Of a stretch of 64,000 nucleotides of DNA, positions 59,220 through 63,778 are shown one piece after another (within the stretch, counting starts at the first letter, position 1; each line of letters opens with the position of its first letter). The notes under the pieces are model-generated. The model ran no database searches, was not told the DNA's origin, and worked only from the letters and a program-made list of their open reading frames with translations. Source of the stretch: a virus. A program made the position numbers and the translations under genes. Location of the stretch: the IMG/VR virus record IMGVR_UViG_3300045412_000261, positions 78,582-142,581 of that record. One strand, given 5' to 3'.

Positions 59220-59927
59220 CTATTGAACATTTGTGATAGAAAATTTAAAAAGTTTTTCCACCGCTTTCTTACTACCTGTATCTTGGGTCAAAGAACTTAC
59301 TATTTCCTTTTGCCAAACGCACTCAAAATCATTAGGTGCATTATATTCAGATACAAATACAATGTGTCCTTTACTTGCCATATCCCTGCACCATTGCCAA
59401 AAAACAACATGATTAAAGTCGTCTTTGTATTTTGTTGTTCCCTCGTATGGTGGGTCGCAATAAATCAAGCTGTTGTCAGGTATCTGTAAATCTAAATAGC
59501 TTTCGTTTACAAATTTTACACCTTGCAATAAAGGGCTTTGATTTATTGCGTTTTTGTAACTTTCATGTACATAATCACGTTTACCAAGTCCATCTCTACA
59601 CCATCCGCCAAGCCATTTACCGCTATAAGAAAAAGCAAAACCTGCATATCCTTTGTATTTATAATTATCGCTTTTTCTTAATTGCTTGTAATCTTCTTCA
59701 GTAAATTCTTTGTTGTTTTTTGGCAAATCTACAACACAATCTCTAATGGCAATTAAGGCATTAATCAAATAAGGGTTTATATCTGCACCTATTCTTTTGC
59801 CTTGTACCTTATCAATCATATTTGCTCCGCCAACAAAAGGTTCAACCCAAGTTCTTTGCCCTCGTTCTTTTAACATTATCGGTAGTATTTCTTTTGCTAT
59901 CCGATTTTTACTTCCCATATATTTCAT
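59220..59927 (-). CDS. D12-class N6-adenine DNA methyltransferase (Dam-like)
   Basis: 235 residues. MKYMGSKNRIAKEI start, FVGGANM (AdoMet-binding motif I, 32-38), GADINPYLI and IYCDPPYEGTTKY (about 155, catalytic DPPY). Orphan modification enzyme protecting phage DNA or regulating it; no restriction partner is nearby. Ends in TAG, followed by further TAG-rich bases before the epimerase ATG. Confidence 0.85.
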   Translation of the reverse strand: MKYMGSKNRIAKEILPIMLKERGQRTWVEPFVGGANMIDKVQGKRIGADINPYLINALIAIRDCVVDLPKNNKEFTEEDYKQLRKSDNYKYKGYAGFAFSYSGKWLGGWCRDGLGKRDYVHESYKNAINQSPLLQGVKFVNESYLDLQIPDNSLIYCDPPYEGTTKYKDDFNHVVFWQWCRDMASKGHIVFVSEYNAPNDFECVWQKEIVSSLTQDTGSKKAVEKLFKFSITNVQ

Positions 59928-59964
59928 ACTCTAAAACTTTTTAATTTTTCTTTTCGTTTTCAAA

Positions 59965-60051
59965 TTAAAATCCTGCTAAATAAACCGCACCATCAAGTAA
60001 CACGGGTTTGGCAAAATTGCCGTTTTCGTTTTCAAATGAACTTTCTGTCAT
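59965..60051 (-). CDS. Mini-ORF containing the NFAKPVL repeat peptide
   Basis: 28 codons from the ATG at 60051. The middle encodes NFAKPVL, from a diverged copy of the dispersed repeat (59998-60024). Probably repeat-derived, not a selected gene. Confidence 0.25.
   Translation of the reverse strand: MTESSFENENGNFAKPVLLDGAVYLAGF
59998..60024 (-). repeat. Dispersed repeat, diverged copy
   Basis: 27 bases with two differences from the shared part of the 32-base repeat (core ACGGGTTTGGCAAAAT on the plus strand). Confidence 0.8.
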
Positions 60052-60129
60052 AATACCATCTTTTGTTTTTCAATTAAACTTTTCGTTTCGGCAACTTCGC
60101 CAAGCCTGAAAACGTTAGCGGTAATGCCG

Positions 60130-60267
60130 TCAGAACTCTGACTTAAAATACCACCTTCCGCATTTATCACATTGTTTTTGTTCTTTACCTTGTTTATATT
60201 TTTTCTCTGCCCATTCGTGCCAAGCAACGTATCCAAGTTTTTTTGGTTTATGACGTTTACAAGGCAT
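60130..60267 (-). CDS. Small Cys/His phage protein
   Basis: 45 residues from MPCKRHKPKKLGYVAWHEWA. HKPKKL, WHEWA and CDKCGRWYF form a small zinc-ribbon-like protein common in phages. A longer in-frame start at 60312 exists, but its first 15 residues come from the dispersed repeat; MPCKRH looks like the native start. Confidence 0.65.
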   Translation of the reverse strand: MPCKRHKPKKLGYVAWHEWAEKKYKQGKEQKQCDKCGRWYFKSEF

Positions 60268-60268
60268 T

Positions 60269-60300
60269 GCCGATAACACGGGTTTGGCAAAATGGCTGTT
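60269..60300 (-). repeat. Dispersed 32-base repeat, copy 1
   Basis: Identical to 61074-61105. Both read NSHFAKPVLSA in the minus-strand frame at a gene start. Confidence 0.9.
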
Positions 60301-60427
60301 GTAGTGCTTCATTTATTTTTTGTTTTTCCATTTTACTTTAGTTTAAAATGTGAGCGTTTGTGCATCTATTTATTATTCGTGGTAGGCTGAAAGGGATTGC
60401 ATCTTAACCCCTGCCTTCGTATAGCGT

Positions 60428-60441
60428 CAGCCGTTATCGGC
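60428..60441. repeat. Inverted partner of the dispersed repeat edge
   Basis: CAGCCGTTATCGGC, inverted relative to the GCCGATAAC edge of the 32-base repeat; together they flank about 150 bases. It contains the stop of the methylase-like gene. Confidence 0.55.
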
Positions 60442-61123
60442 AAGCGTAAGACGACCACTGCACAGCCATAGCCTTTGCAATTCCATCAAACGTTTTGCTT
60501 CTTAACTTTGCTCTTTCTTCTTTTGGTAATTTCCAAGCATCGACATACCAAGTAGGCATACTTTTACCACTTGCAAACTTTGTTCTTTTTGGTGGATTAA
60601 CAATATTTGTCGGTTCTAATTTTGGTAATCCTTTAAGCCATAAGCAGGTTTTCTTTTCAAATGGATCGCCAAATTGGTATGGGTTAATTATTTGGTCCGG
60701 TTTTCTCCATTCGCTGCTCATTATGCCTACCGGGTTTTCAATAGCTATATAATCGCAATCAGCATCAGCAAACATTTTAAAGAATTTAATTGCAAACTCT
60801 CTGTCTTTATGCCTTTGTATTGCTTGTTCGCCATAGCGTTGAATATTAAACCATCTATTACCAGTTACAGTCAAGTATGTACAAGGAGGAAACGCAATTA
60901 TCATATCCCATTTTAGCTTTAATAATTCGGTTACATCGTGCTGTAAATGCCATTCAGGGTGTCCGCCACTTTCAGGTAGTAAATCACAACTAAATGCTTC
61001 GTGTCCTAATTTGCGTAATTCCTTTGTAACCGCTTGACTTTCCTCACAAGCAACAAGCACTCGGAGAACGTTAGCCGATAACACGGGTTTGGCAAAATGG
61101 CTGTTCAGTTCTTCTATTCTCAT
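60434..61123 (-). CDS. DNA cytosine methyltransferase-like protein with repeat-derived N-terminus
   Basis: 229 residues. RVLVACEESQAVTKELRKLG (AdoMet motif), FSCDLLP, IIAFPPCTYLT (PPC), then IENPVGIM and an end TFDGIAKAMAVQW match the phage C5-methylase-like family. The usual start lies near residue 20; residues 1-18 (MRIEELNSHFAKPVLSAN) come from the dispersed repeat. Modification activity is likely but the recognition domain is short. Confidence 0.7.
   Translation of the reverse strand: MRIEELNSHFAKPVLSANVLRVLVACEESQAVTKELRKLGHEAFSCDLLPESGGHPEWHLQHDVTELLKLKWDMIIAFPPCTYLTVTGNRWFNIQRYGEQAIQRHKDREFAIKFFKMFADADCDYIAIENPVGIMSSEWRKPDQIINPYQFGDPFEKKTCLWLKGLPKLEPTNIVNPPKRTKFASGKSMPTWYVDAWKLPKEERAKLRSKTFDGIAKAMAVQWSSYACR
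61074..61105 (-). repeat. Dispersed 32-base repeat, copy 2
   Basis: Identical to 60269-60300; lies in the 5' end of the methylase-like gene. Flanked by CGTTAGC motifs (61069 and, upstream, 61181). Confidence 0.9.
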
Positions 61124-61182
61124 TCGTTCTTAGTTTTAAGATTAGTAATTCTATTACGGCACTGACGCAAATGTGCAAAACG

Positions 61183-61542
61183 TTAGCGGCTATTTCGAAC
61201 CGCCTCCAAAAGATACGCATCTAATAATTGACATAAAGAAGCGAAGGCGTTTCTATCCATCAATTCGGTAAGCGTGATACCTGTTGGTTCTAAGTACTCT
61301 TTTATCAAATCTACTTTTTGAGAAGCAACGGACGCTAACAATCGGTTAGTGTCATTGCCGTTTTCGTAGGTTGTTGAAGTTTTGTTTTCCATATAAAATT
61401 CATTTTCAAGCGATGGTTCATGTTCAATCGCTTCAATGATTTTTCTTTGGGTTAAATCTATTGAATAATCAAATAGTTCACCACCTACGCCAGATGACCT
61501 ATGTAAGCCATCGTTAAAGCCGTTTAATAAATTATTATCCAT
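61183..61542 (-). CDS. Hypothetical phage protein
   Basis: 119 residues, mostly helical, acidic N-terminal half. Its stop (TAA) falls inside a CGCTAACG motif that recurs in the cassette region. Not recognised. Confidence 0.55.
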   Translation of the reverse strand: MDNNLLNGFNDGLHRSSGVGGELFDYSIDLTQRKIIEAIEHEPSLENEFYMENKTSTTYENGNDTNRLLASVASQKVDLIKEYLEPTGITLTELMDRNAFASLCQLLDAYLLEAVRNSR

Positions 61543-61559
61543 TTTGTTAAATTATAAGT

Positions 61560-61790
61560 TTATTTTTCTTCATAACATAATAATGCTTCACAATCTCTTT
61601 CATCTAACCACTCTGCAATGTTTTGGCTTTCTTCCAATTTTTTTTGAACTTCAAAACTGACATCTTTTTTTGCCTGTTCAAGTTCATCAATTTGTTTTTG
61701 CAGTCGTTTATATTCTTGTTGTTTAGCTTTTATTTCAGCCCAGACAACCTTTTTTCTGATTATCTTATTTATTGTTTCGTTATCTATCAT
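61560..61790 (-). CDS. Small coiled-coil protein
   Basis: 76 residues from the ATG at 61790 (MIDNETINKIIRKKVVWAEI); a TTG further up gives a longer frame but is less likely. Central coiled coil (KQQEYKRLQKQIDELEQAKK). Not recognised. Confidence 0.55.
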   Translation of the reverse strand: MIDNETINKIIRKKVVWAEIKAKQQEYKRLQKQIDELEQAKKDVSFEVQKKLEESQNIAEWLDERDCEALLCYEEK

Positions 61791-62051: not shown

Positions 62052-62084
62052 GATTTAAAATTTAAAGTGATGATTAATATGATA

Positions 62085-62115
62085 CAAATATAGGGAGAAT
62101 AATTGAGAAATCCAA
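62085..62115 (-). promoter_or_regulatory. Early promoter, repeated family member 1
   Basis: Minus strand TATATTTG (62092-62085), TTTG/TTG 20 nt upstream (62115-62113), then a conserved leader CATATTAATCATCACTTTAAA. An imperfect inverted repeat (GGGAG/CTCCC) spans it. Confidence 0.75.
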
Positions 62116-62137
62116 ATCCTCCCATGTTAAAATTTTA

Positions 62138-62640: not shown

Positions 62641-62673
62641 TTTTGTAGTTTTAAAGTGGTGAATAATATGATA

Positions 62674-62704
62674 CAAATATAGGGGGGATAAACAAGAAAT
62701 CCAA
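62674..62704 (-). promoter_or_regulatory. Early promoter, repeated family member 2, with inverted repeat
   Basis: Minus strand TATATTTG (62681-62674), TTG 20 nt upstream (62704-62702), leader as in the other members. A perfect 10-bp inverted repeat (62679-62688 / 62706-62715, ATAGGGGGGA type) brackets the promoter, an operator candidate. Confidence 0.75.
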
Positions 62705-62727
62705 GTCCCCCCTATGTTAAACTTTTC

Positions 62728-63297: not shown

Positions 63298-63332
63298 GAT
63301 TCTAAAAATTTAAAGTGGTTAATAATATGATG

Positions 63333-63363
63333 CAAAATTAATAACATTCTATCTAATATCCAA
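63333..63363 (-). promoter_or_regulatory. Early promoter, repeated family member 3
   Basis: Minus strand TAATTTTG (63340-63333), TTTG/TTG 20 nt upstream (63363-63361), leader CATATTATTAACCACTTTAAA. Confidence 0.65.
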
Positions 63364-63582
63364 ATAATAAAATGTTAAAGTAATGTTAAAACTCAATGTA
63401 GTAAAATGTAATCAATTCCTAAATCCATCTATACCACATCAACTAATCAACGCCACAAAGATACAACCCATCTATCACATTTCATAATTTAAAATGTTAA
63501 AAGAATCTAAAAAAATGTTAAAAAATGTTAACGCCTAGATTTTCCCCATAGATTCCTGATTATCCCGGAAAGGAGGATGGCA

Positions 63583-63662: not shown

Positions 63663-63693
63663 CCAAACCACTTAAACATCTATTAATCTTTTG

Positions 63694-63778
63694 ACGTCAG
63701 GACAGGAATCGAACCTGCAAGTTTTTAACAACTATCATTACTACTATCATTGTGCGTCTACCATTTCGCCACCTGACT
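63694..63778 (-). tRNA. Type-II tRNA, Leu-like body, anticodon uncertain
   Basis: About 85 nt. D-arm GCG AAATGGTAGA CGC is Leu-like; T-arm GCAGG TTCGATT CCTGT is intact; a long variable arm AGTT-GTTAAA-AACT is present; acceptor (A)GTCAGG / CCTGAC(G) pairs except the end base. The anticodon stem CAATG/TAATG has one mismatch and its loop ATAGTAG would give AGU, unusual for a Leu-like body. CCA is not encoded. May be degenerate or an odd specificity; the upstream gene ends 6 bases away. Confidence 0.6.

Follow-up and report, generated by a model that had tools for sequence, protein, structure and literature searches.

The locus examined here raises a simple question: why should two genes of one virus begin with the same 32 bases? 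We addressed it in a 64,000-nucleotide stretch of the IMG/VR record IMGVR_UViG_3300045412_000261 (positions 78,582 to 142,581 of the record; hereafter the window, in whose numbering coordinates are given). A preliminary description of this DNA had reported an identical 32-base element at the 5' ends of two genes, a diverged copy in a mini-ORF and an in-frame reading of all of them, and these observations were reproduced. The 32-mer GCCGATAACACGGGTTTGGCAAAATGGCTGTT occurs exactly at two positions and at no other place in the 142,581-base record, and shuffled sequence gave a count of zero. The copies are the following.

60269 to 60300, minus strand: exact 32-mer, copy 1, coding for NSHFAKPVLSA of a 60-aa ORF
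61074 to 61105, minus strand: exact 32-mer, copy 2, coding for NSHFAKPVLSA of a methyltransferase
59993 to 60024, minus strand: diverged copy (81% identity), the 3' arm of a complete site

The diverged copy reads GNFAKPVLLDG in a 28-aa mini-ORF on the minus strand. All three copies are the 3' arms of hairpin sites of approximately 120 nt, the element being completed by a complementary second half about 80 nt upstream of the 32-mer. We consider it very probable that the repeat is the 3' arm of an attC-like cassette recombination site belonging to an integron-like system that is common in Bacteroidia and in phages. At the level of sequence, this reading is carried by a covarying hairpin, one-way arrays, complementary unit ends, a recombinase at the array end and unit-wise insertions and deletions in phages; that the cassettes recombine is what we infer.

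The exact 32-mer was also found in 15 other viral contigs, and each time the gene with the element at its 5' end was that of the same methyltransferase. In these relatives it forms (minus strand, AACAGCCATTTTGCCAAACCCGTGTTATCGGC) the second half of an imperfect palindrome, the first half of which, TAACGTTTTCGGGCTTGGCGAAGTGGC, lies approximately 80 nt upstream in all but one. A gapped pattern of the two arms matched at least 119 stretches in viral contigs and at least 116 in Bacteroidota genome contigs; the exact 26-mer core had no match in the genome collection because the inner stem has another sequence in the bacterial copies. The layout of the site is TAACG...GGCTTGGCGAAG...(start codon in the loop)...TTTTGCCAAACCC...GTTA, its ends being TAAC or CAAC and GTTA or GTTG.

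Covariation was evaluated in 60 diverse copies of the site (set A1). Compensatory changes were present in 18 of the 24 stem pairs, and 239 cells were changed on both sides, versus 69 when shuffled and at most 52 when slid. With column 15 excluded, the wobbles of the A1 stem were 120 G.T versus 7 A.C on the strand as oriented, and the oriented strand folded better than its complement in 50 of the 60 copies. This strand asymmetry may bear, indirectly, on recombination through a folded strand. The covariation indicates a hairpin with conserved structure, and in this and in the AAC/GTT boxes at its ends the site agrees with the attC sites of integrons. A covariance model, R1, served as the search model for the element. 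Window positions 59900 to 61600 matched no Rfam model at E values of up to 1, and a literature search with 12-mers of the element returned matches only in unrelated papers.

Three cassettes stand head to tail on the minus strand of the window, one with a paired site and two with sites whose arms are mismatched.

59998 to 60117, minus strand: complete attC-like hairpin site with arms that pair (R1, 104.7 bits, and fold)
60274 to 60437, minus strand: degenerate site with unpaired arms (sequence; fold of 60274-60420; partial R1 match, 22 bits)
61079 to 61185, minus strand: degenerate site of the methyltransferase cassette (R1, 35 bits, fold and relatives)
60435 to 61182, minus strand: cassette 1, predicted unit from TAA^C to TAA^C, with its site and the DNA methyltransferase gene 60434-61123
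60434 to 60442, plus strand: 3' arm of cassette 1, GTTATCGGC, complementary to the 5' arm at 61074-61082 and holding the stop codon
60115 to 60434, minus strand: cassette 2, predicted unit, with its site and the 60-aa ORF 60130-60312, which has a CDKCGRWYF motif
60114 to 60128, plus strand: 3' arm of cassette 2, complementary to the 5' arm at 60263-60277
59220 to 60114, minus strand: cassette 3, with a provisional 3' end, comprising the site, the mini-ORF and then a methyltransferase, as called from ORFs

The site at 59998-60117 contains the ATG of the mini-ORF and lies upstream of a Dam-type methyltransferase gene; its single-sequence folding z-score was weak (-0.8), and the case for a hairpin rests on covariation. 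The boundaries of cassette 1 were inferred from the phage indels described below, and its ends carry GTTATCGGC at 61074-61082 (minus strand) and 60434-60442 (plus strand) as complementary arms, the latter being the inverted motif noted earlier at the edges of the element. The unit ends of cassette 2, GTTATCGGCAATGCC and GTTAGCGGTAATGCC, are likewise complementary. Cassette 3 holds the 28-aa mini-ORF (59965-60051, MTESSFENENGNFAKPVLLDGAVYLAGF), followed by a D12-class adenine methyltransferase (59220-59927, PF02086).

Both mismatched sites join the 5' arm of one stem type to the identical 32-mer 3' arm. At 60274-60437 the 5' half is of another stem type (TAACGGCTGACGCTATACGAAGGCAGGGG), and at 61079-61185 the 5' arm TAACGTTTTGCACATTTGCGTCAGTGCCG is unpaired with the 32-mer; in relatives of this methyltransferase cassette, the 5' arm matches and the two arms fit each other. 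Loop exchange or gene conversion would account both for arms that do not match and for two 32-mers that are identical. The mismatched arms of the methyltransferase and 60-aa-ORF cassettes probably arose by exchange inside a shared loop, and these two cassettes are likely frozen; the site at 59998-60117 looks still intact. As for the CGTTAGC sites previously placed at gene boundaries, those at 60113 and 61181 are true unit boundaries, and the one at 61069 is a coincidence because it lies inside the methyltransferase reading frame and is CGCCAGC in relatives. As a bare 7-mer, CGTTAGC is not enriched (5 in the window versus 1.9 expected; 7 of 100 shuffles reached 5).

No match to PF00589 (tyrosine recombinase) was found in the window's 142,581-base record, which is possibly incomplete, and its cassettes would thus need a trans-acting enzyme to move. 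When the integron-integrase model was compared with element-bearing genomes, the best ORF in most of them was 348 to 395 aa long and matched model positions 3-178 and 238-315 but not the part between them. In one set of genomes searched with profile A2, each had one full-length match of at least 321 bits, the next best scoring below 245, and the expected catalytic residues are invariant in A2. The closest relatives of solved structure are XerC-like, XerA and IntI4. Residues 181-243 of IntI4 correspond to only about 21 profile positions, so that the I2 segment has no counterpart. The score against TIGR02249 was approximately 207 bits or less, below the IntI cut-off of 265, and the nearest curated family, NF040815, gave 218.7 bits, just under its cut-off of 220; one relative carries the NCBI name "site-specific tyrosine recombinase/integron integrase." The recombinase usually has an extra N-terminal domain of approximately 70 residues. 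The Flavobacterium silvisoli recombinase (L240:595-2334) is 580 aa long, and toward its N-terminus (..DYD..KYSK..CWYL..) it seems to repeat, several times over, the short N-terminal segment present in the other recombinases, for which there was no Pfam match.

We next considered how recombinase and elements are distributed. Elements were detected in 112 of the 149 sampled Bacteroidia genomes and in 2 of 145 Patescibacteria genomes, one of these 2 being a genome chosen as a sample center for having a match. The full-length recombinase was present in 81 of the 149 Bacteroidia genomes, and elements accompanied it in 78 of these 81, versus 34 of the 68 genomes negative for it (P value = 1.9 × 10−11). 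Those 34 genomes, which carry elements and have no full-length recombinase, count against the proposed system. The elements stand in tandem in a single orientation, mostly 0.2 to 4 kb apart. On the complete Bacteroidota chromosome CP058707 (G002; loci L166, L176 and L250) there are at least 150; those listed lie on one strand over approximately 0.5 Mb, the last found about 3.3 kb from the stop codon of the recombinase. A blastn search of plasmids with the bacterial consensus gave no match; by covariance model, a Chryseobacterium sp. SNU WT5 plasmid (L315, NZ_CP041688.1) has six sites, all pointing to the preceding recombinase. Neighboring genes on this plasmid encode Crp/Fnr, RidA and a restriction endonuclease.

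At 21 loci, picked because recombinase and elements share one contig, all 84 flanking elements were on one side only and pointed at the recombinase. A further 20 recombinase loci, taken in score order regardless of elements, often end at contig breaks; elements occur at 8 of them, with 7 agreeing in polarity and 1 (L299) disagreeing. In all, the recombinase is at the array end with the elements directed toward it at 28 of 29 loci. L299 (G049 contig 88) is the only locus with elements pointing away; they lie approximately 7 kb from the recombinase on a contig of 12 kb. Two gene orders exist, with the array 3' of the recombinase (most loci) or 5' of it (e.g., L281-L283). At many loci, though not at every one, a conserved inverted repeat approximately 50 to 130 nt past the stop codon of the recombinase is followed by an attI-like boundary, ...TATAAACAA/GTTA (...AAACAA/GTTA). 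Furthermore, a short relative of the recombinase (267 to 289 aa) lies at the end of the record's own array in 3 of the 15 element-bearing virus records checked.

L278, 10703 to 11572 (G165): phage recombinase
L279, 8286 to 9119 (G176): phage recombinase
L280, 9785 to 10588 (G174): phage recombinase

One alternative is an ordinary integron, with canonical attC sites, possibly in a cluster without integrase, served by a canonical IntI. The plan is indeed the same, with TAAC/GTTA hairpins, complementary ends, polar arrays, an attI-like boundary and an IntI-related enzyme. However, the enzyme is without the I2 region and scores under the IntI cut-offs, and GTTRRRY, from the R box consensus RYYYAAC/GTTRRRY, is present in only 6 to 15% of copies, in line with the poor fit to the classical attC core already recorded in the preliminary description. 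Moreover, R1 had no confident match in Polaribacter phage P12002L, a carrier of experimentally tested canonical attC, and for Bacteroidetes proper the IntegronFinder 2 survey of complete genomes (PMC9024848) named a single complete integron, that of Salinibacter, so that the arrays described here, in three quarters of the sampled Bacteroidia, evidently went unrecognized. We regard an ordinary integron as improbable.

The system appears to work like an integron. Two features keep us from classing it as one in the strict sense: when looked for, the I2 segment was missing and the GTTRRRY core was not kept. With integrons and superintegrons it shares hairpin AAC/GTT sites, units whose ends are complementary, polar arrays that have the recombinase at one end, an attI-like boundary at many loci and the gain and loss of whole cassettes; its bacterial genes, too, are directed away from the recombinase and have the site at their 3' end. 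It differs in a recombinase that has no I2 and usually the additional N-terminal domain, in sites of approximately 126 nt that have a long open loop and, beyond the core, complementary arms of about 15 nt, and in phage genes that start within the site. Compared with XerA, XerC and XerD (NF040815, TIGR02224 and TIGR02225), to which its nearest curated family and best solved relatives belong, the recombinase is array-linked and has an additional N-terminal domain; it is not a copy of the chromosome-dimer resolvase, since separate Xer-like genes score far lower. Qi et al. (2023) described phage attC clusters without integrase and with methyltransferase cargo, the sites being canonical and five of six being recombined by IntI1 (PMC9892861). 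Phage cassettes, DNA methyltransferase cargo and a phage without recombinase recur here, whereas their sites are canonical, and identity with the published clusters was rejected for the one phage checked (P12002L, with R1). A rough text search of P12002L for canonical attC also gave no match, a result to which we attach no weight.

The phage form of the site departs from the bacterial one in its relation to the gene. Gene and element run in opposite directions in bacteria (62 of 67, the attC convention) and in the same direction in phages (48 of 50). In approximately 100 of 131 phage copies, a frame of 30 codons or more begins at an ATG within the element and continues through the 3' arm, which is read as FAKPVL (60) or CQTRV (39) according to element subtype, so that the predicted phage protein starts read M..FAKPVL or M..CQTRV. 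The N-terminus of the phage gene is thus coded by its own recombination site, which supports the earlier proposal that the repeat supplies gene N-termini, and site-encoded stretches such as the predicted peptides MIDRITEQPFCQTRV and MLIEELNSHFAKPVL would be translated as the first residues of the protein. The window methyltransferase (phrog_757) matches its family from residue 20 on only. In class 1 integrons, ORF-11/ORF-18 is a short ORF in attI1, upstream of the first cassette, that aids translation of cassette genes. There, too, the recombination site contains translation-initiation signals; in the phages, unlike in attI1, the start codon is in the cassette's own site and in most phage cassettes is continuous in frame with the gene. 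To our knowledge, a recombination site that doubles as a protein-coding start is unusual. The 121 phage cassettes yielded 49 protein clusters, the largest of which are DNA methyltransferases. In a Muminvirus collection, poorer plating on strain LMO6 went together with the absence of one particular methyltransferase gene (PMC7077304).

Cultured Flavobacterium phages allowed us to place the unit boundaries. Sequence identity between phages mumin6-1 and mumin6-4 is 99.9% in the region, the difference between them amounting to exactly one unit of 506 bp (gp008 and its site), and the junctions ...GCGGTTAACGTTTGG, ...TTGCATAACGTTATC and ...GCGGTTAACGTTATC put the crossover within TAACGTT. Comparing filifjonk9-1 with mumin6-1 revealed two further insertions, with junctions within CTTATAAC and TAACGTT. 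All three indels among these Muminvirus genomes are compatible with TAAC (GTTA on the other strand), and each consists of a site plus a gene, never a site alone. A start codon lent by the neighboring cassette was considered and dropped: the breakpoints set the boundary at the TAACG side, and the tag therefore belongs to the gene's own cassette. Such exact unit-wise gain and loss agrees with the cassette boundaries and gene-capture repeat suggested at the outset, and looking for the cassettes in other phages, as had also been suggested, recovered the same cassette with the same borders and different neighbors. The suggestion of a small mobile element did not hold, the repeat being one arm of a recombination-site hairpin that is owned by each cassette and tied to an array-linked tyrosine recombinase. 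mumin6-1 has approximately ten R1 sites between kb 2.3 and kb 8.2. In mumin6-1 (L268:1620-1690) and filifjonk9-1 (L272:1620-1690), the last array unit ends in CTTATAAC/TACAATATTAC, where the usual G is missing; read on the opposite strand, this end resembles the bacterial attI-like boundary and is perhaps an orphan attI.

These phage data also bear on the view that the element is a conserved translation leader spread among phages by homologous recombination, with no site-specific system acting on the phage copies. The start codon and N-terminus inside the phage element are what a leader would have, and the hybrid sites of the window suggest exchange within the shared loop. Against this, bacterial copies are antisense to the genes, the stem covaries, the indel breakpoints fall at TAAC, where just 7 to 8 bp are shared, rather than in the longer shared loop, and three phages have a recombinase beside their own array. 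We judge the leader explanation very unlikely.

The ends of the units provided a separate line of evidence. When the 5' end (GTTAnnnnn...) of the unit between neighboring elements was compared with the reverse complement of the unit's own 3' end, a mean of 7.0 of 12 positions matched, versus 3.9 for the flanks on either side of a single element and 4.1 for random pairs, and the observed mean was never reached in 2,000 permutations of either the viral or the bacterial set. The form of the arm is fixed: about ten paired bases, one constant nonmatch (G opposite T, a wobble), four more and then nothing. Complementary unit ends are a hallmark of integron cassettes. Among 121 sampled array units, 31 scored 4 or less or had no visible complementarity, some of them from a missed diverged site in between. 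An inverted-repeat element (a MITE or one derived from an IS) that had inserted between genes with a preference for palindromic targets would be palindromic, dispersed, sharp-edged and present in many copies, as this element is, but insertion in a palindromic target is excluded by unit ends that are complementary while single-element flanks are not, and with head-to-tail arrays polarized to a tyrosine recombinase and phage indels of site plus gene, we find this explanation scarcely tenable.

Returning to the cassette recombination site, the mechanism that we propose is as follows. One DNA strand would fold, and the recombinase would cut at TAA^C, which is G^TTA on the complementary strand, and move the cassette between arrays; where a phage record has no recombinase, the host or a coinfecting phage would supply it in trans. 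Because the start codon is carried in the site, a cassette would be translatable wherever it is inserted. Judging from sequence comparisons, we think it likely that this is a class-wide integron-type capture system of Bacteroidia, with an Xer/IntI-like recombinase that has no I2 and with sites missed by attC models, and that phages took it over in inverted form, the hairpin serving as translation start and N-terminal coding sequence, so that anti-restriction genes could be swapped ready to translate, partly by host recombinases.

Integrons are regarded as rare in the main Bacteroidota classes. No published description of the site or the arrays was found in the literature searched, which comprised few subscription papers and no preprints, and the best reading of our data is an integron-like system that has been unrecognized so far, in which the site of the phage variant doubles as the 5' coding end of the gene. 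With arrays of up to approximately 0.5 Mb, such a system would rank among the largest unannotated gene-capture platforms, and its phage form would be a concrete mechanism for the exchange of methyltransferase genes among flavobacterial phages.

Two minor observations concern the end of the window. A single tRNA-Thr of 86 nt with anticodon AGT was predicted at 63693-63778; this is unusual and possibly a false call. A 76-nt repeat is present in three copies (62061-62136, 62650-62725 and 63309-63384; 66 to 80% identity), each before minus-strand genes, and two of the copies contain TATATTTGTATC on the minus strand, which resembles a Bacteroidota promoter.
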